Shown: positions 20,899 through 34,406 of the stretch, piece by piece
Numbering within the stretch: the stretch's first letter is position 1
Layout of the letters: each line of letters begins with the position of its first letter
Source: Faecalibacterium longum CLA-AA-H243
Lineage (GTDB): Bacteria > Bacillota > Clostridia > Oscillospirales > Ruminococcaceae
Assembly: GCF_020687245.1 (NCBI RefSeq)
Contig: NZ_JAJEQG010000007.1
Span: forward strand, 1 to 64,000
Direction: 5' to 3'
Length of the DNA: 64,000 nt
Translations under genes and position numbers: made by a program
The notes under the pieces: model-generated
Told to the model about the DNA's origin: nothing
The model's database searches: none
Seen by the model: only the letters and a program-made list of their open reading frames with translations

Positions 20899-22094
20899 TA
20901 AAGGAGACCTTCAAACAGGCCGTCCAGAACGTCTTGAGCAACAAAGTCCGCACCTTCCTCACCATGCTGGGCATCATCATCGGCGTCATGGCCGTCATCG
21001 TCATCGTCGGCCTCGGCAACGGCATGACCAACATGATGCAGGACTTCTACTCCGACATGGGCAGCGATATTCTGAGCGTCAACGTCATGACCGCCAGCAC
21101 CCGCTCAGTGGAAGTGGACGATGTGTACAGGATCATCAATGAAAAGCCCGAGTATTATAAGGGCCTTTCGCCTATTGCCAGTGTCGGCGACACGCTGCGG
21201 GTGGCGGGCGAGAAGTACCGCCGCACCTACATCAGCGGCGTCAACGAAGATTACATGACCATCAACAACTACAAGGTGGCCAAGGGCCGCGGCATCCAGT
21301 ACGCCGATTTGATAGACAACAAGAATGTCTGTGTCATCGGCGACTATGTGGACCGTAAGATCTTCGGCGGCAACGGTCTCGGCAGCACCCTCAAGGTAGG
21401 CGCCAGCGAGTACCGCATCGTGGGCGTGCTGGAAGGCCGCTCCAAACCCGCCTCTCAGTACGAGGGCGGCAACGACGACATTGTTCTCGTTCCCTATACC
21501 ACCCTGATGAGCGTCAACAACACCAGCAGTGTCAGCCAGTACTATGTGGTCCTGCAGGACGCGGACCACTCGGATGAGGCACAGGAGTTTTTGCAGTCGC
21601 GGCTCAAGAAGCTGGTCAGCAAGGACGACTATGTCTACGTCATGAGCCTGAGTGCAGCCATGAAGCAGATGTCCTCCATGATCAACGTCATGGTGGGCGT
21701 CCTGACGGCCATTGCAGGCATCTCGCTGCTGGTCGGCGGCATCGGCATCATGAACATCATGCTGGTGTCCGTCACCGAACGCACCCGTGAGATCGGTATC
21801 CGCAAGGCACTGGGCGCACAGGAGAGCACCATCCTGACCCAGTTCGTCGTGGAGGCCGGCGTCACGTCGGCGCTGGGCGGCTGCCTCGGCATCGTGCTGG
21901 GCTACGTCGTGTCGGCCATTATCAACCAGATCCTTCCGTATATCCTGACGGATATTACCCTGAATGTCACCCCCTCGGCGGACGCAGCAGCCATCGCCGT
22001 GGGCATCTCCTGCGGCATCGGTGTCCTGTTCGGCTTCCTGCCGGCCCGCCGTGCCGCCAGCCTGAACCCCATCGAAGCGCTCAGATATGATTAA
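20895..22094 (+). CDS. MacB-type ABC transporter permease (FtsX fold)
   Basis: 399 residues. One N-terminal span ('TFLTMLGIIIGVMAVIVIVGLG'-like, about 17-40), a large extracellular MacB core domain (about 45-270), then three spans (about 275-390) with the typical 'LLVGGIGIMNIMLVSVTERTRE' block and 'IGIRKALGA'. The C-terminal 'PARRAASLNPIEALRYD' is nearly invariant in the family. It acts as a mechanotransmitter moving substrate outside the membrane. Start overlaps the ATPase stop (ATGA). Confidence 0.95.
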   Translation: MIKETFKQAVQNVLSNKVRTFLTMLGIIIGVMAVIVIVGLGNGMTNMMQDFYSDMGSDILSVNVMTASTRSVEVDDVYRIINEKPEYYKGLSPIASVGDTLRVAGEKYRRTYISGVNEDYMTINNYKVAKGRGIQYADLIDNKNVCVIGDYVDRKIFGGNGLGSTLKVGASEYRIVGVLEGRSKPASQYEGGNDDIVLVPYTTLMSVNNTSSVSQYYVVLQDADHSDEAQEFLQSRLKKLVSKDDYVYVMSLSAAMKQMSSMINVMVGVLTAIAGISLLVGGIGIMNIMLVSVTERTREIGIRKALGAQESTILTQFVVEAGVTSALGGCLGIVLGYVVSAIINQILPYILTDITLNVTPSADAAAIAVGISCGIGVLFGFLPARRAASLNPIEALRYD

Positions 22095-22104
22095 GGAGTT
22101 TACC

Positions 22105-24246
22105 ATGAAAAAACGATTCCTCGCATTCCTGCTGGCTGTCTGCGTGGCTGTTTCCATGCTGGTGCTGCCCGCTTCTGCGGTCGGCTCCAACGCGGCAGTC
22201 CAGACGGCGACGGCACTGGGCGGTCTGACCGCCGAGCAGGCCGGTTCTCTGGGTGCGCCCCTCACTCGTGGGCAGGCGGCCCGCCTCCTCACCGCATTCT
22301 CTGCTTACCGCGATACCACCACGGCACAGGGCCGCACCGGCCGCCTCTACAGCGATGTAGACAGCGACTCTCCCTATGCGGTCTACATCCGCACTGCCGT
22401 CCAGAACGGCTGGATGACCGGCTACTCCGACGGCAGCTTCCGTCCGGACAACACCGTCACGCTGGAAGAAGCCTGCACCATGGCGCTGCGCCTGCTGGGC
22501 TATGATGTGGCAAAGCTGGGTGGTACCTTCCCCACAGCTCAGCTCAGCAAGGCCAGCGCGCTGGGCCTGCGCAATGAGATCAATGCCCGTCAGGGCGAGA
22601 CTCTGACCCTCGAGCAGGGTACCATGCTCTTCTACAACGCCCTCACCGCTATGAACGGCAGCGGTCAGGTCTACGCTTCCACCCTTGGCTTTGCCGTGAG
22701 CAACGGCCAGGTGGACATCTCTTCTGTCCTGCTGGACAACGTCAAGGGTCCCTTTGTGGCAGATGCTTCCACCGTCCTGCCTTTCGCCCCGGCGGCCATC
22801 TACCGCAACGACGAAGTCACCACCTCAGCGGCCCTCTCTCCCTATGATGTCTATTATTATAACGAGAGCGCCCGCACCGTCTGGCTCTACAACAAGCGCG
22901 CCGCAGGCCGCGTGACGGCTGTCTCGCCCTCGGCCAGCGCTCCGACCTCTGTGACCGTGGCCGGCGTCACCTACGCTATCGCTTCGCCCTCTGTGGCCTA
23001 CCAGCTGTCCTCCCTGTCCGGCGGCGGCGTGGGTCAGGTGGTCACTCTGCTGCTGGGCATGAATGATGCAGCTGTCTCCGTCCTCACCGGCGACGCGGCA
23101 GACGCTGTGTTCTACGGCGTGGTCCAGTCCTCATCCCGCACCCTCGTGGAGACGAACAGCGCTGAGGTGCAGCAGGCTGTCTCGGTCATGTGTACCGACG
23201 GCACCGCCCGCACCGTCAATGTGGACAATAAGCTCAATTTCCCGGCCGGCAAGCTGGTGGAGATCAGCGTGGACGGTGACGGCGAAAGCGTCCAGTCCAT
23301 CTCGTCCCGCTCGACCAGCGGCACCGTCAGCGCCGACGGCACCGCGCTGGGCGACACCCCGTTTGCAGACAACGTGCAGATCATTGATACGACGTCGGAG
23401 GGTGTGGCTGGGGCAGTTCGCCCCAGCCGCCTATCGGGGGTAACTCTGAGTGAAAGCGACGTCCGCTACTACACCACCAATTCCGCAGGCCAGATCGACC
23501 GGGTCATCCTCGACGATGTGACCGGTGACCTGTGGGAGTACGCTGCGCTGGATTCTGTCCGCCGCCTGACGGACGAAGCCGCCAAGAAGATTGACAAAAA
23601 AATCAGCGACAAGGCACAGGACGCCGCAAGAGAGGCCGCAGGCCTCCCCGCTGCGACCACCACCAAGGTGGACAAGACCGATGAGGAGACCTTCCAGGAT
23701 GTGAAGAACATCCTTGTCCCCAGCACCAGCGATGTGCTCTACGGCCTCATCGACGGCAGTGTCGTCAGCTCTACCTGGAACACCCTTACCGGCAAGACGG
23801 ACCAGCTGTTCAGCTATGTGCTCCGCCGTACCGGCGACAGCGTGGGCGGTACGCTGGGCGACTTCCTCAACTATCTGGGCGAGGGTGCGACCTACGTCTG
23901 CTACTCCGGCGGCAAACAGGTGGCCTACAGCACCGCCACCAAGTACCCCGTTATCGCAGGCGGCATCGCCATCGGCCGCTCTGCTGACGGCAAGGCCATC
24001 AACCGGATGCTCCAGCTCTCGCCGGTAGTCATCGATAAGCTGGGCGCAGCTTCGGTCATGAGCGGCGACAAGCGCTATGAGACCGCCGACGATATGCAGG
24101 TGTATCTGTGGTCGAACGGCCAGTATTTCGCGACCTCGCTGCCCAAGATCAACACCGAGGATTATAAGCTCATCGGCTGGTACGACAACTTCGGCTGCTC
24201 CGGCGGCAGGAAGATCCGTATCCTTGTGGCCGTCAAGACGAACTGA
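22105..24246 (+). CDS. SLH-domain secreted protein of efflux operon
   Basis: 713 residues. Signal peptide: KKR, then 'FLAFLLAVCVAVSMLVL', with a likely cut after ASA. Two S-layer-homology repeats follow (about 35-170; 'YIRTAVQNGWMTGYSDGSF' and 'PDNTVTLEEACTMALRLLGYD' are classic), so the protein should attach to the cell wall. The remainder (about 200-713) is rich in Ser, Thr, Asp and Ala with repeated beta-strand character; I do not recognise a catalytic domain. ATG 22105 has AAGGAG upstream inside the end of the permease gene, so it belongs to the operon. It may form an outer wall component of the efflux system, which is inferred from context. Confidence 0.85.
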   Translation: MKKRFLAFLLAVCVAVSMLVLPASAVGSNAAVQTATALGGLTAEQAGSLGAPLTRGQAARLLTAFSAYRDTTTAQGRTGRLYSDVDSDSPYAVYIRTAVQNGWMTGYSDGSFRPDNTVTLEEACTMALRLLGYDVAKLGGTFPTAQLSKASALGLRNEINARQGETLTLEQGTMLFYNALTAMNGSGQVYASTLGFAVSNGQVDISSVLLDNVKGPFVADASTVLPFAPAAIYRNDEVTTSAALSPYDVYYYNESARTVWLYNKRAAGRVTAVSPSASAPTSVTVAGVTYAIASPSVAYQLSSLSGGGVGQVVTLLLGMNDAAVSVLTGDAADAVFYGVVQSSSRTLVETNSAEVQQAVSVMCTDGTARTVNVDNKLNFPAGKLVEISVDGDGESVQSISSRSTSGTVSADGTALGDTPFADNVQIIDTTSEGVAGAVRPSRLSGVTLSESDVRYYTTNSAGQIDRVILDDVTGDLWEYAALDSVRRLTDEAAKKIDKKISDKAQDAAREAAGLPAATTTKVDKTDEETFQDVKNILVPSTSDVLYGLIDGSVVSSTWNTLTGKTDQLFSYVLRRTGDSVGGTLGDFLNYLGEGATYVCYSGGKQVAYSTATKYPVIAGGIAIGRSADGKAINRMLQLSPVVIDKLGAASVMSGDKRYETADDMQVYLWSNGQYFATSLPKINTEDYKLIGWYDNFGCSGGRKIRILVAVKTN

Positions 24247-24267
24247 GCCTGAAATTTTCCAATCACA

Positions 24268-24309
24268 GAACAGCAGCCTCGCGGAAGATGAAGCGGGGCT
24301 GCTGTTTTA
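24268..24309 (+). terminator. Terminator of efflux operon
   Basis: AACAGCAGCC pairs with GGGCTGCTGTT across an A/G-rich loop, followed by TTTATT. Confidence 0.75.
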
Positions 24310-24384
24310 TTCTCCTATTTGCCACACGCCCTATTTCGTGTTACAATAAAAACTAGAAAAATTGCGGAAAAAGGAGGTGCGGCA

Positions 24385-25095
24385 ATGATACGCATTGCTC
24401 TGGTCGAGGACGAGGCAGAGGTGCGGGCGCAGCTTCAGGGCTATGTGCAGCGGCACACCCGGCAGTACGGCACCGAGTTCGCGGTGACGGAGTTCGCTGA
24501 CGGCATGGAGCTGCTGGATGATTACCGCCCGGTGTACGACATCCTGTTTCTGGACGTGGAGATGAAGCATCTGGACGGCATGGAGACGGCCCGGCGAGTG
24601 CGGGAGCTGGACAAGGATGTTATCATTGTTTTCATCACGAATATGGCGCAGTACGCCATCGGCGGGTACGCCGTGGGCGCACTGGACTATGTGCTCAAGC
24701 CGGTGCCTTATTTTGCGTTTTCGCAGCAGCTGCGCAAGGCCGAAGAACAGCTGCGCCGCCGCGCACGGCATTATCTGGCCCTGCCGGTGGAGGGCGGGAT
24801 GCGGCGGCTGGATTCGTCCCTCATCTATTATCTGGAAAGCGAGGGACACCGCGTCCATTTTTATACCGAAGAGGGCGATTTCGTGGCGGCAGGCACCCTG
24901 AAAGCCTTTGAGGAAAAGCTGGCCGAGCGGCCCTTTGCCCGCTGCAACAGCGGCTACCTTGTCAATCTGGCACAGGTGAAGAGCGTGCAGCAGGGGATGG
25001 TGCAGGTGGGACCCTACGAATTGCAGGTCAGCCGCCCCCGGCGGAAAGCCTTCCTCGCGGCGCTGGCCGACCACATCGGGGGTGAGGGTGCATGA
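24385..25095 (+). CDS. LytTR-family response regulator (AgrA-like)
   Basis: 236 residues. Receiver domain about 1-120 with acidic pair ED near residue 10, phospho-acceptor Asp57 in LFLDVEMKHLDG, and Lys in DYVLKPVPY. The LytTR DNA-binding domain covers about 135-230 with 'YYLESEGHRVHFYTEEGDF' and 'FARCNSGYLVNLAQV'. ATG 24385 follows AAGGAGGTG at ideal spacing. Its stop overlaps the kinase start (ATGA). LytTR regulators control secreted peptides, toxins or cell-wall functions; the adjacent efflux/SLH operon is a likely target, but no LytTR direct repeat was confirmed there. Confidence 0.93.
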   Translation: MIRIALVEDEAEVRAQLQGYVQRHTRQYGTEFAVTEFADGMELLDDYRPVYDILFLDVEMKHLDGMETARRVRELDKDVIIVFITNMAQYAIGGYAVGALDYVLKPVPYFAFSQQLRKAEEQLRRRARHYLALPVEGGMRRLDSSLIYYLESEGHRVHFYTEEGDFVAAGTLKAFEEKLAERPFARCNSGYLVNLAQVKSVQQGMVQVGPYELQVSRPRRKAFLAALADHIGGEGA

Positions 25096-26372
25096 CGGCA
25101 CTGCCCAACATCCCGCGCCTGTATACGGCGCTGGCCGAGTGTCTGGCCGTGGGCATCTACGCCCTGCCGCTGGGCATCCGCTTCGGCAAAACGGCCACCA
25201 TCGCTGCCAGTGCGGCATGGGCGCTGGCCCTGAGTGCTTTTTTGCAGGCCACGGGCAGAGTTCCGCTGGCGTGGTGGATCCCCTGCATGGCGGCAGCTGT
25301 GGGGATACAGTATTTATACCTCTGGGTCACCCGCACCATCTCCCTGCTGGAAGCGGGCTATGTCTGCGCCCGGGCCTTCGTTCTGGCAGAGCTGGCGGCC
25401 AGCGCCGAGTGGCAGCTGCACTGCTTCCTCTGGCCTCAGCGCAGCGGGGCCGACGGCCTGTCACTGCTGCTTCTGGTGGTGGTCTATGGCGGCGTTTTCG
25501 GCTGCATCTGGGTGCTGGAGCATAAGCACAAAAGTCCCAAGGGCCATATCGTCATCAGCGGAAAAGCGGGCCTCGTGGCCGTCGTCATGGCGGCGATGGT
25601 CTTCGCGGTGAGCAACCTGCTGTTCTTGGGTGACCGCGAGGTGGATATGAGCGTCTACTACATCCGCACGCTGGTGGACATCTGCGGCGTGCTCATCCTG
25701 ACGGTTCAGCACGAGCAGCTGCGGGAGGCGGCGCTCCACAGTGAGCTTGCCGCCATGGACGAGGTGCTCCACCGCCAGTACGAGCAGTACAAGCGGAGCA
25801 AAGAGGGCATCCGGCTCATCAACAGCCGCTATCACGAGCTGAAGATTCAAATCGCGGACATCCGCGCCGAGCGCGACCGGGCCAAGCAGGACGCGGCTCT
25901 GGCCCGGATGGAGAGCGGCATCCGGCAGTATGAAGCCGAGAACAAGACTGGCAACCCGGTATTGGATACCCTATTGACCGCCAAAAGCATGGACTGCCAG
26001 CAGCGCGGCATCAACATGACCAGCGTGGCCGACGGCAGCCAGCTGGGCTTTCTGAGCACGCGGGAGCTGTGTACCCTCGTAGGCGCGCCGCTGGACAACG
26101 CCATCGAGAGCGTGCTGGCCGAGCCTGACCCCGAAAAGCGTCTGCTGCGGGTGGCCATCTATAACCAGAGCGGCTGCGTGATGCTCCGCTTCGAGAACTA
26201 CTGCGCCCAGCCTGTGGAGCTGGGCGCGGACGGTCTGCCCGTCCACAACGCCCACGGCGGCTATGACTTACAGGGCGTGCGTGCGGCCGCCCAGCACCAC
26301 GACGGCACCATGACTCTTCATTGGGCCGACGGCTGGTTCACCCTGCGGATCCTGCTGCCTGTCCCATCGTGA
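25092..26372 (+). CDS. GHKL-domain sensor histidine kinase (AgrC-like)
   Basis: 426 residues. The N-terminal half (about 1-210) has six membrane spans. A coiled coil (about 215-285) carries the phospho-acceptor candidate His248 in SRYHELKIQI, matching the Y-H-x-L-K pattern of the AgrC group. The GHKL ATPase domain (about 290-426) has N-box GAPLDNAIES and a G-box around 'AHGGYDLQGVRAA'. It pairs with the LytTR regulator just upstream. The multi-span sensor suggests a peptide or membrane-stress signal; the ligand is unknown. Confidence 0.92.
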   Translation: MTALPNIPRLYTALAECLAVGIYALPLGIRFGKTATIAASAAWALALSAFLQATGRVPLAWWIPCMAAAVGIQYLYLWVTRTISLLEAGYVCARAFVLAELAASAEWQLHCFLWPQRSGADGLSLLLLVVVYGGVFGCIWVLEHKHKSPKGHIVISGKAGLVAVVMAAMVFAVSNLLFLGDREVDMSVYYIRTLVDICGVLILTVQHEQLREAALHSELAAMDEVLHRQYEQYKRSKEGIRLINSRYHELKIQIADIRAERDRAKQDAALARMESGIRQYEAENKTGNPVLDTLLTAKSMDCQQRGINMTSVADGSQLGFLSTRELCTLVGAPLDNAIESVLAEPDPEKRLLRVAIYNQSGCVMLRFENYCAQPVELGADGLPVHNAHGGYDLQGVRAAAQHHDGTMTLHWADGWFTLRILLPVPS

Positions 26373-26374
26373 GA

Positions 26375-26414
26375 AACGTCTCTGTCATCGCACAGCGATG
26401 ACAGAGACGTTTTG
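26375..26414 (+). terminator. Terminator of two-component operon
   Basis: AACGTCTCTGTCATCG pairs perfectly with CGATGACAGAGACGTT across CACAG, followed by TT. Confidence 0.85.
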
Positions 26415-26526
26415 CTATTCTGCACAATAAAACTGTTCTCGAAATTGTGGATTAGCACAATAAAATTTGAAACCAAATTGAAACTTCTGCAAAATATGCC
26501 TCCAAAATGACAGATTGTGAAGATGT

Positions 26527-26556
26527 TTGTGAATTTTCTTTGAATCCATTTATAAT
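26527..26556 (+). promoter_or_regulatory. Promoter of GH3 operon
   Basis: TTGTGA (26527-26532), 18 bp, TATAAT (26551-26556), about 60 bases before the ATG at 26620, which has AAGGAGGAAG as ribosome-binding site. Confidence 0.7.
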
Positions 26557-26619
26557 AGTGGCAATGCTCCGGGAGCTGTACCCGGAAAATATGGATTCAG
26601 AATAAGGAGGAAGAAAATT

Positions 26620-29568
26620 ATGTTGTCCATCAATATGGATGATGTAATGCAGGTAGTTTCGAATATTCAGAACTATCTGATTGCATTCGGCGTCGTCCTC
26701 GTACTCGCGCTCCTCGTGATGTTCGCGGTGCGGAAGATGCCCAAAGCGAAAAAGAAGATGATTCGTGCGCAGTCCGGCCTCGCCATTCTGCTGGCGCTGG
26801 CGATTGTCGTCAACCTCATCTGCACCGGCCCCATGTCCACCATGCTGGATCTGGTCTCCGGCGAAGGTTCCATCAGTGAGGAGACTTCCGCAGAGGCCAC
26901 CGAGCTGGTCAATGAGATCACCCAGGAAGGCATCGTTCTGGCTCAGAACGACGACAACATCCTGCCTGTGGCTTCCGGTTCCAAGCTGAACGTCTTCGGC
27001 TGGGCTTCCACCAGCCCCTGCTACGGCGGCACCGGTTCCGGCGCTCTGAACGACGCTTACCCTGTCACCGACCTGCTCACCGGTCTGCATGATGCAGGCA
27101 TCGAGACCAACGACGAGCTGAGCAAGTTCTACACCGATTACTGCTCCACCCGCCCCAGCGTCGGCATGGCACAGCAGGACTGGACCCTGCCCGAGCCGAA
27201 TGTCAGCCTGTACACCGACGAGATGATGGCAAACGCCAAGGCATACTCTGACACCGCCATGGTCGTCATCACCCGCGTCGGCGGTGAGGGCGCAGACCTT
27301 CCCACCGATATGTCTGCTGTCGTGGACGGCAGCTGGGTCCGCCGTGTGGCAGATTACCGTGGTTCTCAGCGCGGCGCCGGCTACTACAACGGCACTTACG
27401 ATGACAGCCTGAACGAGGGCAATGACTGGGATAAGGGCGACCACTTCCTGCAGCTGTCCAACCGCGAGGAAGAGCTCATCGACCTCGTCACTTCCAACTT
27501 CGACAACGTCGTCGTCGTTTACAACGGCGCAAACGCTTTCGAGATGGACTGGGTCAAGAACTACCCCCAGATCAAGGGCGTCCTGCTCTGCCCTGGCACC
27601 GGCCAGTCCGGCTTTGAGGGCTTTGGCCGCGTGGTCGCCGGTGAGGTCAATCCCTCCGGCCGTACCGCTGACACCTATGCTGCTGACCTGACCGCTTCTC
27701 CGTGGTGGAACAACTTCGGTGACTTCAAGTACACCAACGCCACCGAGCTGGATTCCGATTCCAGCTTCTTCGACCCCGCAGGCGCTACTGCATCCTTCGT
27801 CAACTACGCTGAGGGCATCTATGTCGGCTACAAGTTCTATGAGACTGCTGCCGATGAAGGCCTCATCGACTACGACAAGGAAGTTGTCTATCCCTTTGGC
27901 TACGGCCTGAGCTACACCACCTTCACCCAGAAGATGAGCGACATCACCAGCGACGGCAGCAGCCTGAAGTTCTCTGTCACCGTCACCAATACCGGCTCTG
28001 CTGCCGGCAAGGATGTCGTGGAGATCTATAATGATCCTCCGTACACCAACGGCGGCATTGAGAAGGCCTCCGCAAACCTGCTGGACTTCGCCAAGACCAG
28101 CGAGCTTGCCCCCGGCGAGAGCGAGACCATCGACTTCACCATCCCGGTCGAGGATCTGGCTTCCTACGATTACAAGAACAACGGCTGCTATGTGCTGGAG
28201 GCTGGCGGTTACATCATCAGCACCAACTCTGACTCCCACAATGTTCTGGATTCCAAGACCTACACTGTTGCTTCCGACATCGTTTACAACGAGTCCAACA
28301 AGCGCGAGAGCGACGCTGTTGCAGCGACCAATCAGTTCGATTTCGCAGAGGGCGAGATCACCTATCTGTCCCGTGCGGACGGTTTTGCAAACTATGCTGA
28401 GGCCACTGCCGCTCCTGCTGATTACAACATGAGCGATGAGGTCAAGGCTGTCTTCGACAACGCACACACCTACACTGAGGTCAACTACGAGAAGGACGAT
28501 GACCCCAACGCAGAGGACATCACCACCGGCGCAAAGAACGGCCTCAAGCTGGCTGACCTGCGCGGCGTGGATTACAACGATTCCAAGTGGGATGACCTGC
28601 TGGATGAGATGAGCATCGACGACCTGCAGCAGACCATCGGCTTCGGCGGCTATCAGACTGCAGCTGTGGACAGCATCGGCAAGGTGCGCACCAACGACTG
28701 TGACGGCCCTGCGTCCATCAACAACAACTTCACCGGCGTCGGCTCTGTCGGTTTCCCGGCTGCTACCCTCATCGGCATGACTTGGAGCAAAGATCTGGCA
28801 CACGACTTCGGCGACAGCATCGGCAAGATGGCCAACGAGATGAACACGTCCGGCTGGTATGGCCCGGCAATGAACATCCACCGCACCGCTTTTGCAGGCC
28901 GTAACTTCGAGTACTACTCGGAGGACGGTGTCCTGTCCGGTGCTATGGCCGCAAACGCCATCGCAGGCGCACAGGAGCACGGCGTCTACGCTTACATGAA
29001 GCACTTCGCCCTGAACGATCAGGAAGGCAACCGTACTTCTATGCTGGCTACCTGGTCCAACGAGCAGGCTATCCGCGAGATCTACCTCAAGCCCTTCGAG
29101 ATGTCTGTCAAGGATGCTGACTGCCACGCTGTCATGTCTTCCTTCAACTACATCGGCAGCCGCTGGGCTGGCGGCTGCAAGGAGCTGCTGCAGAACGTCC
29201 TGCGCGGTGAGTGGGGCTTCCTCGGCTTCGTCGAGACCGACTACTTCGGTGTCTACGGCTACATGACCGCTGATCAGGGCGTCCGCAACGGCAGCGATCT
29301 GATGCTCTGCACCACCGGCAATGACTTCAACAAGATGACTGTTCTGACCAACAGCAGCAAGCAGGCAATGCGCACCTCTGCCAAGAACATCCTCTACACT
29401 GTGGTCAACAGCCGCGCTTATGAGGCTGAGAACCTGAACCCCGGCATGGCAAAGTGGAAGGTCATCATGATCGGTGCTGACGTCGTGGCCGCGCTGCTCA
29501 TCGTTGGCCTGGAGTACACCGCCATCAAGAACTACAAGAAGCGCAAGGAAGAGGAAGAAGAAGTCTAA
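26620..29568 (+). CDS. Membrane-anchored, domain-permuted GH3 beta-glucosidase
   Basis: 982 residues. Two spans at the N-terminus (about 20-37 and 50-70) and one near the C-terminus (about 945-965), followed by a charged tail ending in a run of Glu. Domain order is reversed relative to most GH3: the alpha/beta GH3-C domain comes first (about 90-360, 'PGTGQSGFEGFGRVVAGE'), then a fibronectin-III-like domain (about 430-540), then the TIM-barrel GH3-N (about 660-935). Nucleophile candidate is Asp874 in GFVETDYFGV; 'KHFALNDQE' and 'GRNFEYYSED' are standard barrel motifs. Expected to release terminal beta-linked sugars at the outer membrane face. A similar permutation is known in Ruminococcus beta-glucosidase; the double membrane anchoring is unusual. 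Confidence 0.88.
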   Translation: MLSINMDDVMQVVSNIQNYLIAFGVVLVLALLVMFAVRKMPKAKKKMIRAQSGLAILLALAIVVNLICTGPMSTMLDLVSGEGSISEETSAEATELVNEITQEGIVLAQNDDNILPVASGSKLNVFGWASTSPCYGGTGSGALNDAYPVTDLLTGLHDAGIETNDELSKFYTDYCSTRPSVGMAQQDWTLPEPNVSLYTDEMMANAKAYSDTAMVVITRVGGEGADLPTDMSAVVDGSWVRRVADYRGSQRGAGYYNGTYDDSLNEGNDWDKGDHFLQLSNREEELIDLVTSNFDNVVVVYNGANAFEMDWVKNYPQIKGVLLCPGTGQSGFEGFGRVVAGEVNPSGRTADTYAADLTASPWWNNFGDFKYTNATELDSDSSFFDPAGATASFVNYAEGIYVGYKFYETAADEGLIDYDKEVVYPFGYGLSYTTFTQKMSDITSDGSSLKFSVTVTNTGSAAGKDVVEIYNDPPYTNGGIEKASANLLDFAKTSELAPGESETIDFTIPVEDLASYDYKNNGCYVLEAGGYIISTNSDSHNVLDSKTYTVASDIVYNESNKRESDAVAATNQFDFAEGEITYLSRADGFANYAEATAAPADYNMSDEVKAVFDNAHTYTEVNYEKDDDPNAEDITTGAKNGLKLADLRGVDYNDSKWDDLLDEMSIDDLQQTIGFGGYQTAAVDSIGKVRTNDCDGPASINNNFTGVGSVGFPAATLIGMTWSKDLAHDFGDSIGKMANEMNTSGWYGPAMNIHRTAFAGRNFEYYSEDGVLSGAMAANAIAGAQEHGVYAYMKHFALNDQEGNRTSMLATWSNEQAIREIYLKPFEMSVKDADCHAVMSSFNYIGSRWAGGCKELLQNVLRGEWGFLGFVETDYFGVYGYMTADQGVRNGSDLMLCTTGNDFNKMTVLTNSSKQAMRTSAKNILYTVVNSRAYEAENLNPGMAKWKVIMIGADVVAALLIVGLEYTAIKNYKKRKEEEEEV

Positions 29569-29608
29569 ACCGGACCCTCTCTCCATGCAGCACCTGAACT
29601 GAACCAAC

Positions 29609-29645
29609 GGCAAAGGCCCGCTGCACCAGACAGCGGGCCTTTGCC
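29609..29645 (+). terminator. Strong hairpin between the GH3 genes
   Basis: GGCAAAGGCCCGCTG (29609-29623) pairs perfectly with CAGCGGGCCTTTGCC (29631-29645). There is no T tail, so it may cause pausing or protect mRNA ends without full termination. Confidence 0.55.
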
Positions 29646-29673
29646 CTGCTCAGGATAAAATGAGGAAAATGCG

Positions 29674-32097
29674 ATGAAGCATACCGACATCATCCAGAAA
29701 CTGAACTTAGAGCAAAAATGCGCTCTGCTCTCGGGCGAGACTGTCTTTACCACCCGCGCTCTGCCGGGCAAGGGCATCCCGGCCATCACCCTTTCGGACG
29801 GCCCCAACGGTGTCCGCAAGCAGGCCGGCGCCGCCGACCATCTGGGCCTCAACCCCAGCGTTCCGGCAACCTGTTTCCCGACCTCTTCCGCCACTGCGTG
29901 CAGCTGGGATGAGAAGCTGGGCGAAGCCGTGGGCGAGGCACTGGGCGAGGAAGCCGCTGCACAGGAAGTGGCTGTCCTGCTCGGCCCTGGCCTGAACATC
30001 CAGCGCAGCCCCCTTTGCGGCCGCGACTTCGAGTATTTCTCGGAAGACCCCATCCTCGCGGGCAGGATGGCCGCTGCCTATGTGCGCGGCATCCAGAAAA
30101 ACGGCATCTCTGCCTGCCCCAAGCACTTTGCGGTCAACAGTCAGGAGTTGCGCCGCATGGCCAGCGACTCGGTGCTCGATGAGCGCACCCTGCGGGAGCT
30201 GTATCTGACCGGTTTCGAGATCGTGGTGAAAGAGGCAAAGCCCAAGACCATCATGACCTCCTACAACCTCATCAACGGCACCTATGCCAACGAGAATGCC
30301 CACCTGCTGCAGGACATTCTGCGGAAGGACTGGGGCTTCGACGGGGCCGTCGTCACCGACTGGGGCGGCTCCAATGACCACGCCCTCGGCGTGAAGAACG
30401 GCTCCACCCTCGAAATGCCCTGTCCCGGCGGCGACTCCATCCGGGAGCTGATGAAGGCCGTACAGGACGGCAAAATTTCCGAGGCCGACGTGGACGCCCG
30501 CCTCGACGAGATGCTGGAACTGGTGTTCTCCACCCACGCTGCGGTGGAAAAAGCGCCCCGCACCTTCGACGCTGCCGCGCACCATAAGCTTGCCCGCCGC
30601 GCGGCCGCAGAGAGCATCGTCCTGCTCAGGAACGAGGGCGGCATCCTGCCGCTCAAGCCCAATGAGAAGCTGGCCGTCATCGGCGACTTTGCCGAGACGC
30701 CCCGCTATCAGGGCGCAGGCTCCAGCGCCGTCAACGCCCTGCAGGTGGACACCCTGCTGGACAGCATCAAGGCCGACGGCAGCGGCATCACCTTCGTGGG
30801 CTATGCCTCCGGTTTCGAGCGTCAGGGTGCAGCTGACGCCGAGAAGCTGGAAGAGGCTGTGGCCCTCGCAAAGAAGGCGGACACCGTTCTGCTCTGCCTC
30901 GGCCTCGATGAGCTGCGAGAGAGCGAAGGCCTCGACCGCGCCGACATGAAGCTGGCCGAGAATCAGCAGCAACTTCTGGCCGCTGTGGCTGCCGTCAACC
31001 CGAACGTCGTCGTTCTGCTGAGCGCCGGTGCACCGATAGAGACGCCGTGGGTCGGCCAGTGCAGGGCACTGGTCTACGGCGCACTGGGCGGACAGGCAGG
31101 TGCAGGCGCGGCCGCAGACATCCTCACCGGCAAGCTCTGCCCCTGCGGCAAGCTGTCCCAGACCTGGGCGCAGGCTTACGACGACACCCCCGCCAAGGCG
31201 AACTTCGGCGGTGAGGGCCGGAACGTGGAGTACCGCGAGGGCCTGTATGTGGGCTACCGGTACTATCAGACCGCCGGTGTGCCGGTGGCGTTCCCCTTCG
31301 GCTACGGCCTGAGCTACACCACCTTCGAGTACAGTGATTTGAAGGCAGACGAGAAGGGTGTGACCCTCACCGTCACCAACACTGGCAGCTGTGCCGGCGC
31401 CGAGATCGTCCAGCTCTACGTCGCAAAGCAGGACGCAAAAATCTTCCGTCCGGTGCAGGAGCTGAAGGGCTTTGCAAAGGTCTTCCTCGCCCCCGGCGAG
31501 AGCAGGGCGGTGAGCATCGCTCTGGACGACAAGGCGTTCCGCTACTGGAACGTCAAGACTGACCGCTGGGAAGTCGAAGGCGGAAGCTATCAGCTCCGCG
31601 TGGGTGCATCCAGCGCAGACATCCGCCTGACGGCGGAAGTCTCCGTCAAGGGGACCAACGCTCCCGACCCCTACGAAGGTCTCGACCTGCTCCACTACGT
31701 CTCCGGTCAGATCACCTATGTGACCGACGCCGAGTTCGAGGCTCTGCTGGGCCACCCTGTGCCGGAGGATGTCGTCCGCATCGACCGGAACATGACGCTG
31801 GGCGAGATGGACCATGGCCGCAGTCCGCTGGGCTGGGTGGCACAGAAGGTGCTGCGCTACCGTCTGGACAGCAGCTTTGCAAAAGGCACCCCCGACCTGA
31901 ACACCGTGTTCCAGTATAATATGCCGCTGCGCGCGCTGGCCAAGATGACCAACGGCATGGTGAGCATGGGCATGGTAGACGGCCTCGTCTGGGAGCTGAA
32001 AGGCTTCTGGCTCGTGGGCATCCTTCGGGTCAGCTATGAGTTCGTCAAGAATCTCATCCTGAACAGCCAGATGGAAAACCGGCTCAAAAACAGCTGA
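29674..32097 (+). CDS. GH3 beta-glucosidase, canonical order
   Basis: 807 residues without a signal peptide, so cytoplasmic. TIM barrel about 1-290 with 'ITLSDGPNGVR', 'GRDFEYFSEDP', 'CPKHFAVNSQE' and nucleophile Asp229 in VVTDWGGS. The GH3-C domain is about 305-540, and the fibronectin-III-like domain about 560-650 ('FPFGYGLSYTTFEY' leads into it). A C-terminal extension of about 140 residues ends in a hydrophobic helix region. It follows the membrane GH3 in one transcription unit, so the pair could split oligoglucosides outside and inside the cell. Confidence 0.9.
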   Translation: MKHTDIIQKLNLEQKCALLSGETVFTTRALPGKGIPAITLSDGPNGVRKQAGAADHLGLNPSVPATCFPTSSATACSWDEKLGEAVGEALGEEAAAQEVAVLLGPGLNIQRSPLCGRDFEYFSEDPILAGRMAAAYVRGIQKNGISACPKHFAVNSQELRRMASDSVLDERTLRELYLTGFEIVVKEAKPKTIMTSYNLINGTYANENAHLLQDILRKDWGFDGAVVTDWGGSNDHALGVKNGSTLEMPCPGGDSIRELMKAVQDGKISEADVDARLDEMLELVFSTHAAVEKAPRTFDAAAHHKLARRAAAESIVLLRNEGGILPLKPNEKLAVIGDFAETPRYQGAGSSAVNALQVDTLLDSIKADGSGITFVGYASGFERQGAADAEKLEEAVALAKKADTVLLCLGLDELRESEGLDRADMKLAENQQQLLAAVAAVNPNVVVLLSAGAPIETPWVGQCRALVYGALGGQAGAGAAADILTGKLCPCGKLSQTWAQAYDDTPAKANFGGEGRNVEYREGLYVGYRYYQTAGVPVAFPFGYGLSYTTFEYSDLKADEKGVTLTVTNTGSCAGAEIVQLYVAKQDAKIFRPVQELKGFAKVFLAPGESRAVSIALDDKAFRYWNVKTDRWEVEGGSYQLRVGASSADIRLTAEVSVKGTNAPDPYEGLDLLHYVSGQITYVTDAEFEALLGHPVPEDVVRIDRNMTLGEMDHGRSPLGWVAQKVLRYRLDSSFAKGTPDLNTVFQYNMPLRALAKMTNGMVSMGMVDGLVWELKGFWLVGILRVSYEFVKNLILNSQMENRLKNS

Positions 32098-32110
32098 AAG
32101 GAATAAGGTC

Positions 32111-32662
32111 ATGAATTTCTGGAATAACTTTGCCGCAAAGCATCCGGCTGCGGCCAAATGGGTGCGGGAGGGCGGACTGTTCGTCATCGTGTCCAACCTC
32201 ATCACCGTGTTCAAATATCTGCTTCTGCAGTTCCTGCCCAAGGCGTTTGCAAGCCTGCCGGTGGTGGACTTCGGCTGGCCGGGCATCGACATCACCCTGT
32301 TCGGCGAGACCTTCAAGTGGAACATCCTCGGCTACGACGCCGCCCACGGCGGCCTGCCCTACTTCTGCGCCTACATGGTGGCCATGGTCATCGGCGAGTG
32401 CATCAATTTTCCCATCCAGCGCAACTTTGTCTTCCGCAGCAAGGGCAACCTCGCCAAGCAGATCGGCTGGTATCTGCTGGCCTTCTGCCTCATCACCTGC
32501 ATCGTCAACTCCATCAACTGCATCTGGGTGGCTGTGGCCGGTCTGCTGGTGCCTGATTTCATCTACAACATCGGCACCACGGTGCTCAACGGCGGCATTT
32601 CGATGGTCATCTTCTTCTTCGTGAACAAGATCATCTTCCCCGAAGGCGAAGCCGCAAAATAA
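32111..32662 (+). CDS. GtrA-like membrane protein
   Basis: 183 residues with four spans, as in GtrA flippase-like proteins. The family's motif before span 3 is present as INFPIQRNFVFRSK (the usual pattern is N-F-x-x-x-R-x-x-V-F). GtrA members help flip lipid-linked sugars or act in teichoic-acid and O-antigen glucosylation. The start lies 13 bases after the GH3 stop with AAGGAATAAGG upstream, so it is the third gene of the GH3 operon. Why a GtrA protein goes with beta-glucosidases is unclear; cell-envelope glycan turnover is a possible link. Confidence 0.83.
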   Translation: MNFWNNFAAKHPAAAKWVREGGLFVIVSNLITVFKYLLLQFLPKAFASLPVVDFGWPGIDITLFGETFKWNILGYDAAHGGLPYFCAYMVAMVIGECINFPIQRNFVFRSKGNLAKQIGWYLLAFCLITCIVNSINCIWVAVAGLLVPDFIYNIGTTVLNGGISMVIFFFVNKIIFPEGEAAK

Positions 32663-32701
32663 TCTGTCATCTTCTTTATTTTCATCATTTTCTTCATCCG
32701 A

Positions 32702-32740
32702 GCCAACAGGCCGTCCTCTTCCAGAGGACGGCCTGTTGGC
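32702..32740. repeat. Perfect 18-bp inverted repeat
   Basis: GCCAACAGGCCGTCCTCT and its exact complement flank a 3-base loop. No T run follows on either strand. It lies between the GtrA gene and the putP promoter and may end the GH3 operon transcript. Confidence 0.65.
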
Positions 32741-32809
32741 ATATTGAGTGGTTTTGGACGCTGCAAAGGACGAAATTTCGGTCATAGGGTAAGAATCTGC
32801 CCAAGGGTC

Positions 32810-32839
32810 TTGCACTTTGATGCTTTACTGTGGTAAAAT
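32810..32839 (+). promoter_or_regulatory. Promoter of putP-like gene
   Basis: TTGCAC (32810-32815), 18 bp, TAAAAT (32834-32839), about 50 bases before ATG 32889. Confidence 0.6.
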
Positions 32840-32888
32840 CATGCCATGCTTTTATCATAGAGGAAAAAGCACCAAAGGGGGAACGTGT

Positions 32889-34406
32889 ATGAGTGAGATC
32901 TGTATCATCGTCACCATCGTCGTCTATCTTGCGGCCATGCTGCTGGTGGGTTTCGCCTATAGCAAGACCAACAACGACAGCGCCGACTTCTACCTCGGCG
33001 GCCGGAAGATGGGGCCGCTGGTCACGGCCATGAGCGCCGAGGCCAGCGATATGTCCAGCTGGCTGCTGATGGGGATGCCGGGTCTGGCCTATCTGACAGG
33101 CATTGCCTCGCCGGGCTGGACGGCCATCGGCCTTGCGCTGGGTACCTGGCTCAACTGGCTCATCGTGGCCCGGCGGCTCCGCCGCTATTCGGCCAACCTC
33201 GACGCCATCACGGTACCGCAGTTCTTGTCGCTTCGCTTCCATGACCAGCGCAACCTGCTGAACGCTCTGGGCGCGGTCATCATCATCGTCTTTTTCGTGC
33301 CGTATACGGCCTCGGGCTTTGCGGCCTGCGGCAAGCTGTTCCACAGCCTCTTCGGCGTAGATTACATGGCAGCAATGCTGGTGTCGGCCCTCGTCATCGT
33401 GGGCTATACCATTCTGGGCGGCTTCCGCGCCGTCACCACCACCGACCTTATCCAGTCGATGGTCATGTCGCTGGCCCTCATCGCGGTGCTGGGCTACGGC
33501 ATCGTTGTGGCAGGCGGCTGGGGTGCTGTGGTGGAGAACGCCCAGAGCCTTTCCGGCTACCTGACCATGACGGCCAGCCACGACGCTGTGACCGGCGGGG
33601 CCACGTCCTACAGCCTGCTGGACATCGTCTCCACCATGGCGTGGGGCCTCGGCTACTTCGGTATGCCCCACATCCTGCTCCGCTTCATGGCCATCGAGGA
33701 CGAGAAGAAGCTGGTGCTCAGCCGCCGCATTGCCACCGTCTGGGTGGTCATCGCCATGGCGGCGTCCATCGTCATCGGCATGGTGGGCCTCGGCATGACC
33801 AGGGTTGGTGCGCTGGAATTCCTCAGCGGCTCGTCCAGTGAGACCCTTATCGTCCGCATCGCCAGCCTCATCAGCCAGCACGGTGTGCTGGCGGCAGTCC
33901 TCGCCGGACTCATCCTTGCAGGCATCCTGGCGGCTACGATGTCCACGGCGGACAGCCAGATGCTGGCCGCTGCGTCCAGCGTGTCCCAGAACATTTTGCA
34001 GGAGTTCGGCCACCTCAAACTGAGCGAGAAGCAGAGCCTCTTCGCAGCCCGCCTGACCATCATCTGTGTCAGCGTGGTGGGCGTGGTGCTGGCCCGCGAC
34101 CCGGATTCCAGCGTTTTTGGCATCGTCAGCTTTGCGTGGGCCGGTTTCGGCGGCTCCTTCGGCGCTGTCGTCCTCTGCGCCCTGTTCTGGAAGCGCTGCA
34201 ACTGGCAGGGCGCGCTGGCCGGTATGCTCTGCGGCGGCCTGATGGTCTTCGTCTGGAAGTACATTGTCAGCCCGCTGGGCGGCGTCTTCGGCATCTATGA
34301 GCTTCTGCCCGCCTTCCTCGTCTCGCTGGCCGTCTGCGTGGTGGTCAGCCTCGTGACCCCGGCTCCCACGGAGGATATTCTGGCCGAGTTCGACGCGGCA
34401 AAATAA
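32889..34406 (+). CDS. putP: Sodium/proline-type symporter (SSS family)
   Basis: 505 residues with about 13 spans, matching PutP in length. Typical elements are 'SADFYLGGRKMGPLVTAMS', 'EASDMSSWLLMGMPG' (sodium and proline site of PutP, Ser-rich) and 'GILAATMSTADSQMLAAAS' near residue 340. I chose ATG 32889, preceded by AAAGGGGGA, over an upstream in-frame ATG that lacks a site. Proline is the most likely substrate, but other SSS members take pantothenate or sugars; the motifs fit PutP best. Monocistronic, with its own promoter and a bidirectional terminator. Confidence 0.9.
   Translation: MSEICIIVTIVVYLAAMLLVGFAYSKTNNDSADFYLGGRKMGPLVTAMSAEASDMSSWLLMGMPGLAYLTGIASPGWTAIGLALGTWLNWLIVARRLRRYSANLDAITVPQFLSLRFHDQRNLLNALGAVIIIVFFVPYTASGFAACGKLFHSLFGVDYMAAMLVSALVIVGYTILGGFRAVTTTDLIQSMVMSLALIAVLGYGIVVAGGWGAVVENAQSLSGYLTMTASHDAVTGGATSYSLLDIVSTMAWGLGYFGMPHILLRFMAIEDEKKLVLSRRIATVWVVIAMAASIVIGMVGLGMTRVGALEFLSGSSSETLIVRIASLISQHGVLAAVLAGLILAGILAATMSTADSQMLAAASSVSQNILQEFGHLKLSEKQSLFAARLTIICVSVVGVVLARDPDSSVFGIVSFAWAGFGGSFGAVVLCALFWKRCNWQGALAGMLCGGLMVFVWKYIVSPLGGVFGIYELLPAFLVSLAVCVVVSLVTPAPTEDILAEFDAAK

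Follow-up and report, generated by a model that had tools for sequence, protein, structure and literature searches.

We analyzed a gene cluster of Faecalibacterium longum CLA-AA-H243 that encodes two glycoside hydrolase family 3 (GH3) proteins, a GtrA-family membrane protein and a two-component system. The window, i.e., the whole stretch of DNA analyzed, comprises 64,000 nucleotides (nt), positions 1 to 64,000 of the forward strand of contig NZ_JAJEQG010000007.1 (RefSeq assembly GCF_020687245.1). On its + strand lie, in order, a LytTR response regulator (RR), a GHKL sensor histidine kinase (HK), a permuted GH3 protein (A), a second GH3 protein (B), a GtrA-family protein (C) and a PutP-like symporter; the first five are referred to as the module. 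An initial annotation made from the sequence alone had described A, B and C and had left out the upstream RR and HK. The nearest relatives compared are Faecalibacterium, with A 92% identical in one same-genus genome and 88% identical in F. prausnitzii APC923/61-1. The features of the cluster, in window coordinates, are as follows.

24385..25095, + strand: RR, LytTR response regulator (Pfam Response_reg and LytTR; the listed open reading frame begins at 24319)
25092..26372, + strand: HK, GHKL sensor histidine kinase (Pfam HATPase_c_5, 42.8 bits)
26489..26518, + strand: degenerate LytTR-type tandem repeat, half-sites 26489-26497 and 26510-26518, 12-nt spacer (aligned with clearer Faecalibacterium repeats)
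26527..26556, + strand: promoter-like site TTGTGA-18-TATAAT before A (consensus scan, 10/12)
26620..29568, + strand: A, permuted GH3, 982 amino acids (aa), two N-terminal spans and one C-terminal span (Pfam, hydropathy, model)
26674..26730, + strand: A transmembrane (TM) span 1, residues 19-37 (hydropathy; model helix 6-39)
26779..26835, + strand: A TM span 2, residues 54-72 (hydropathy; model helix 42-69)
26932..27831, + strand: A GH3-C domain, residues 105-404, with acid/base Glu223 inside (Pfam; E223 in 81/81)
28012..28233, + strand: A Fn3-like domain, residues 465-538 (Pfam)
28750..29262, + strand: A GH3-N domain, residues 711-881, with nucleophile Asp874 inside (Pfam; D874 in 79/81, the remaining 2 truncated)
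29455..29511, + strand: A TM span 3, residues 946-964 (hydropathy; model helix 945-981)
29609..29645, + strand: strong RNA hairpin in the 105-nt gap that separates A from B (RNA folding)
29674..32097, + strand: B, canonical GH3, predicted cytosolic, 807 aa (Pfam; D229 and E418 in 70/70)
32111..32662, + strand: C, GtrA-family four-helix membrane protein, 183 aa (Pfam, 28.3 bits; model versus dolichyl-phosphate-mannose synthase (DPMS), Z 11.9)
32285..32320, + strand: C β-hairpin, residues 59-70, in the TM1-TM2 loop (AlphaFold2 model, with a predicted local distance difference test score, pLDDT, of ~80 there)

Domain Order and Membrane Topology of A

Pfam placed the domains of A in the order Glyco_hydro_3_C, Fn3-like and Glyco_hydro_3 (N), i.e., permuted, with every match above cut-off, and hydropathy analysis gave two N-terminal spans and one C-terminal span, bearing out the architecture, coordinates and strand of the initial annotation. 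A structural model of the 982 residues (mean pLDDT 90.5, predicted template modeling score 0.91) had as its best matches the permuted GH3s 5wug, 5wvp and 5k6l-o, near full length, with E values of 2e-58 to 5e-61 against 5wug and 5k6l-o. A shares domain order, catalytic Asp/Glu and fold with GlyA1 (PDB 5K6L-O) and the P. barengoltzii β-glucosidase (5WUG/5WVP), and to these permuted GH3s it adds an N-terminal TM hairpin and a C-terminal TM helix. The permuted order itself has already been published (PMC5104943, PMC11233000); BrGH3A, which shares it, is described there as having no signal peptide (PMC11233000).

Tethering at both ends was conserved, with both N-terminal spans kept in 80/80 relatives of A and the C-terminal span in 78/80, the other two both stopping at a contig end; these relatives were the best 80 of 89 loci and were found with peptide patterns from A itself, so the estimate of span conservation is biased. 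Among 43 aligned A proteins with the two-plus-one arrangement of spans, the mean number of Lys and Arg residues was 5.35 in the TM1-TM2 loop and 4.86 in the C-tail, versus 0.56–1.12 in the segments expected outside, and 42/43 obeyed the positive-inside rule. Because the positive charges sit in the TM1-TM2 loop and the C-tail, A is probably oriented with its N-terminus and the enzyme outside and its TM1-TM2 loop and C-tail inside.

Catalytic Residues and Sugar Pocket of A

The same 43 proteins were aligned with GlyA1 and compared at the residues named in PMC5104943. The nucleophile D874 (GlyA1 Asp709) and the acid/base E223 (GlyA1 Glu143) were present in 43/43, as were all of Asp532, Arg597, Lys630 and His631 of the GlyA1 −1 subsite. 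Arg641 was retained in 35/43, the other eight having gaps. Two sugar-contact positions had changed: that of the stacking Trp710 of GlyA1 is occupied by Tyr in 33 proteins, Phe in four, Asn in three, Trp in two and Ala in one, and that of Tyr677 by Phe in 35 and Trp in eight. These alterations are a difference in pocket, not in family. Judged by its residues, A should be an active glycosidase with changed or narrowed specificity, and we consider it likely that it acts as an ecto-β-glycosidase.

B, a Predicted Cytosolic GH3

Over residues 6–661, B aligned to the canonical GH3 β-glucosidases 8j9f and 7ms2, to which it adds ~145 C-terminal residues that are partly conserved among module B proteins. 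The survey took in module B proteins above 700 bits and excluded those below. All 70 had the catalytic D229 and E418 intact, and none of the 70 had a hydrophobic N-terminal segment, in keeping with the cytoplasmic location given by the initial annotation. B is thus predicted to be a cytosolic GH3 with intact catalytic residues.

C and the GtrA Family

The match of C to Pfam GtrA_DPMS_TM (PF04138) was a narrow pass (28.3 bits, cut-off 26.1), and 4/11 module GtrA proteins from ten genomes scored below this cut-off. No sequence relatives of C were found in the PDB at E values up to 1. In the AlphaFold2 model of C (mean pLDDT 82), four long helices are accompanied by a β-hairpin, which lies in the TM1-TM2 loop. 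When this model was searched with Foldseek, DPMS chains ranked first, with E values >1 and hence no significance, and VIA-align against three DPMS chains gave Z scores of 11.9, 11.8 and 11.2, with the next row at 4.2; a Z below ~13 may reflect an arrangement common in helical bundles. The gap in Z to the next rows, together with the Pfam match, supports a GtrA/DPMS TM-domain fold for C, and the GtrA-like assignment made initially was therefore upheld.

Members of the GtrA family are thought to flip polyprenyl-phosphate sugars (PMC7389260). C shares with family members such as GtcA the four-helix fold, but is partnered with a hydrolase instead of a glycosyltransferase and has an extra conserved loop with the β-hairpin; the main C subtype conserves this TM1-TM2 loop strongly, and the C22 subtype lacks it. 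In GtcA, R95 and N132 are required for the glycosylation of lipoteichoic acid and wall teichoic acid, and K121 for that of lipoteichoic acid (PMC7389260). C was aligned with 19 further GtrA proteins from the ten genomes; at the positions of R95, K121 and N132 it seems to have T129, T155 and I166, respectively, the mapping being indirect as GtcA itself lay outside the alignment and the numbering was set by residue spacing on GtcA-like proteins. Some other GtrA subgroups of the same genomes also lack the Arg at the R95 position. In a three-component transmembrane glycosylation system, GtrA would be encoded next to a polyprenyl-phosphate glycosyltransferase and a GT-C transferase; a Pfam scan of six genes of the window detected no glycosyltransferase. 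One GT2 was seen among ten annotated representatives of neighboring families, and it belongs to a lineage whose A is without GtrA.

Conservation of the Cluster

Neighborhoods were compared for 103 non-redundant A genes with at least 900 bits to the window A, counting GtrA genes within 5.5 kb on the same strand. GtrA was present near 71 and absent near 15, while 17 lay too close to a contig end, leaving 86 determinable A genes. Six loci repeating other genomes (L100, L101, L111-L114) were removed from the B, operator and neighborhood counts. B was also present in 68/71 A loci with GtrA, and RR and HK relatives lay within 9 kb of 50/86 determinable A genes. Since GtrA adjoins 71/86 determinable A genes, the association is not due to chance; both the spans and the neighboring GtrA gene, on which the initial annotation had staked its interpretation, were found to be conserved. 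The GtrA genes beside A belong to three diverged subtypes (54, 9 and 8 of the 71), with identities to the window C falling to about 21%; as read from the sequences, different GtrA proteins occupy one slot. A control examined 30 GtrA matches from ten A-bearing genomes: 19 lay outside the module, and none of these had a relative of A, B, RR or HK within 1.5 kb; the 11 in-module genes had B nearby in 10 cases and RR in one.

The module order RR-HK-A-B-C or RR-HK-B-C-A was seen in Faecalibacterium, in Oscillospiraceae/Ruminococcaceae records, in Butyrivibrio and in other Lachnospiraceae. The genome surveys, after removal of the six repeats, gave 16 A genes with GtrA (including the window), five without and two undetermined, and all five without GtrA were diverged A paralogues with 48–52% identity to A. 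C matched 8/382 class-sample genomes, seven of which also encode a two-plus-one A at that spot; in the eighth (G452), C is present only as a fragment at the edge of a contig, and a single-span A paralogue lies in another part of the genome. Full-length A was found in 7/148 family-sample and 8/31 genus-sample genomes, two of the latter via split or contig-cut matches, and any A match at 1e-90 in 10/391 class-sample and 4/398 phylum-sample genomes. The A cluster belongs to the accessory genes of gut and rumen Clostridia. A co-variation of A and C distances (r 0.47, Mantel p 0.001) was set aside as evidence, as both follow the species.

In a variant locus (L123 3849-12151, G398:C11), a 791-aa protein that is GH2-like by eye takes the place of the cytosolic GH3, together with a diverged A, a 136-aa protein, GtrA, RR and HK. 

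Several further arrangements were seen around A-type genes. The window genome holds a second permuted GH3 (L093 7218-10217, G000:C33) with one N-terminal and one C-terminal span and its own RR-HK ~2.3 kb upstream, and no B or GtrA there. Similar single-span A paralogues have RR-HK as neighbors in L086 and L109, and RR-HK together with B and C in L107 and L110. A membrane GGDEF protein of ~376 aa, identified as such from one representative, is inserted between HK and A in 17/80 loci (e.g., L008, L012, L017), which are Butyrivibrio in label where named, and hints at cyclic-di-GMP. Loci L034, L039, L043, L049, L067 and similar ones form a lineage with A alone, where an aldose 1-epimerase-like gene and a lactate permease adjoin A; further out lie a GT2 and a CDP-alcohol phosphatidyltransferase (one representative each annotated) and a gene resembling, by eye, an IspD-type nucleotidyltransferase. 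In L120 (G801:C12), from a more distant genome, diverged relatives of A and B stand side by side; the search reported two stop codons within the match to A, yet a 923-aa frame is open there. L075 carries a truncated A-type GH3 on a Treponema-labelled contig or bin, reflecting either transfer or a binning error.

Regulation and Transcription

Pfam assigned a receiver and a LytTR domain to RR and a GHKL ATPase domain to HK, and relatives of both recur near A in many loci. An operator scan was run with one fixed rule, a score out of 16 and a call at 15 or more, after removal of duplicate loci. LytTR-type tandem repeats scoring at least 15/16 preceded 21/100 A genes versus 1/1101 other genes of the same loci (Fisher p 5e-23, kinship ignored), with 18 distinct sequences, mostly from Butyrivibrio/Lachnospiraceae. 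An earlier, looser scan (both strands, spacers of 11–13, duplicates included) gave 25/122 for A, 6/80 for B and 7/1151 for others, and B itself carries the repeat in some B-first loci (L015, L042, L115). The half-sites with a 12-nt spacer before A in relatives fit the LytTR consensus. LytTR sites are reported to have 12-bp spacing and a position upstream of the −35 element (PMC6193735). The window and the other aligned Faecalibacterium share a related repeat, of which the window copy is degenerate; the best score before the window's A, 12/16, is below the call and falls at another place than the aligned repeat at 26489-26518. We infer that the LytTR regulator binds the repeats before A, and hold with good confidence that the two-component system controls A. 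A known RNA upstream of A was rejected as a candidate, as a search of 24000-33100 against Rfam brought no hit at gathering score.

According to the initial annotation, A, B and C form an operon. This needs correcting for A, which has its own promoter-like site and is split from B by a gap of 105 nt with a very stable hairpin; B and C are 13 nt apart. The hairpin (−41.6 kcal/mol, z −4.4) is without a T tract and absent from the terminator-like sites listed; it is possibly an mRNA processing or stabilizing element.

Proposed Function of the Cluster

Our preferred reading, held tentatively and at a little under even confidence, is that the cluster is a signal-controlled, two-sided β-glycoside-processing module in which the GtrA protein carries out the membrane step. 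In such a module HK would sense an extracellular cue and RR would switch on A (and B-C). A would then remove terminal β-linked sugars from a substrate held near the outer membrane face, C would let the substrate or product, probably amphiphilic or lipid-linked, change membrane sides, and B would complete hydrolysis in the cytosol. A membrane role of A is plausible because its spans are conserved and GtrA stands beside 71/86 A genes. Whether B acts on the same substrate as A, or a related one, we would put at an even chance, and translocation of that substrate by C is somewhat doubtful; it is this last link, C as the membrane step, that holds the overall confidence down.

Several observations weigh against the two-sided module. 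Operator scores lie below 15/16 in 79/100 A genes, the window's A included. GtrA is lacking beside 15/86 A genes, 12 of which are also without a two-component system within 9 kb. In the lineage with A alone, representatives of the neighboring genes are an aldose 1-epimerase and a lactate permease, so that A can work without C. No sugar transporter of a known uptake class is encoded among the five module genes. Finally, the specificity of GlyA1 cannot be transferred to A, since the Trp710 and Tyr677 positions differ, being mostly Tyr and Phe.

Two alternatives come next, each of them unlikely, though worth serious weight, and neither ahead of the other. The first is the turnover of envelope glycolipids or lipid-linked sugars, for example in carrier recycling: A would trim outer-leaflet glucosylated lipids or polyprenyl-linked sugars, C would flip them and B would cleave them inside. 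A role in glycolipid or envelope glucan turnover had been suggested in the initial annotation, and of that suggestion the membrane role stands as plausible. The double tether keeps A at the bilayer, C has the fold of a family thought to flip such sugars, and B. subtilis has enzymes that free undecaprenyl phosphate from lipid-linked sugars, which resemble other enzyme classes (PMC11898649). Turnover itself fared less well, as there is no glycosyltransferase or lipid enzyme among the five module genes, the GtcA residues seem replaced in C by the indirect mapping above, and 15/86 A genes do without GtrA. Large GH3 enzymes are not known to cleave glycosyl phosphates, which also counts against it. 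Turnover is further disfavored by the LytTR/GH3 pairs of Butyrivibrio proteoclasticus, which were described inside polysaccharide utilization loci (PULs; PMC2914790).

These same pairs, of LytTR regulators with secreted GH3s in PULs 7, 21 and 33, favor the second alternative, ordinary regulated use of plant or host oligosaccharides, with A as a cell-anchored β-glucosidase or xylosidase, B as a cytosolic one and GtrA as a loosely linked passenger. GlyA1, the permuted relative of A, cleaves cello- and xylo-oligosaccharides, gentiobiose and sophorose (PMC5104943), and an aldose epimerase adjoins A in one lineage (one representative). A passenger, however, would not be expected in 71/86 A loci, nor in a slot that has been refilled by diverged subtypes. 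It is very improbable that A serves mainly in signaling by making or removing the ligand of the neighboring GHKL kinase (e.g., deglycosylating a signal), with regulation beyond the cluster as the output: RR-HK lie near A in 50/86 determinable loci and accompany single-span A paralogues that have neither B nor C, among them the C33 copy of the window genome (L093), and a GGDEF gene is inserted in 17/80 loci (one representative identified), but the operator-like repeats precede A itself, the usual arrangement of a target gene.

A more specific form of the two-sided module, which we regard as rather improbable, is that this GtrA lineage is a dedicated hydrolase partner in gut Clostridia. As part of a degradative pathway under sensory control, it would move a lipid-linked or amphiphilic β-glycoside between the membrane-tethered ecto-GH3 and its cytosolic counterpart, a GH3 or GH2. 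If this were true, GtrA-family proteins would serve more than the flipping step of glycan synthesis. GtrA proteins are poorly understood membrane proteins of the envelope, usually discussed with glycosyltransferases, and a lineage tied to hydrolases on both membrane sides offers a handle on their cargo and its direction. The cluster also suggests which regulator, promoter and targets probably go together in an uncharacterized two-component system. Faecalibacterium and Butyrivibrio, two of the genera concerned, are important for gut and rumen health. The parts of the cluster are themselves of known kinds.

Comparison with Published Loci

The pairing of a LytTR regulator with an anchored GH3 is not new. 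The 2010 genome paper on B. proteoclasticus B316 describes three LytTR regulators, each near a secreted GH3 that carries a TM helix at its C-terminus (PMC2914790), and, likened by description, its PUL 7, 21 and 33 loci and the A cluster are very likely the same kind of locus. The N-terminal TM hairpin, the permutation, the GtrA partner and the operator do not appear in the passages of that paper on these loci. Bgl3A of B. proteoclasticus, with a signal peptide and a C-terminal TM helix (PMC5217386), is by its description perhaps a relative of A. Within the open-licence PMC literature, we found no report of a GtrA partner, an N-terminal hairpin or double tether, or an operator of A, and none pairing GtrA with GH3; bifidobacterial GtrA and GH3 genes are named in separate lists (PMC11418510).

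Neighboring Genes

The SSF symporter downstream of C (32817-34406) was rejected as a module member. It is PutP-like (481.2 bits against Na_Pro_sym, under the model cut-off of 515.5) and, among the mapped loci, is a neighbor of C only in Faecalibacterium, adjoining it in the window, L001, L002, L099 and L102, and in L100/L101, the repeats of L001/L002. Upstream of RR, positions 22087-24246 encode a protein of 719 aa; its start is signal-like, and its N-terminal part resembles SLH repeats by eye.

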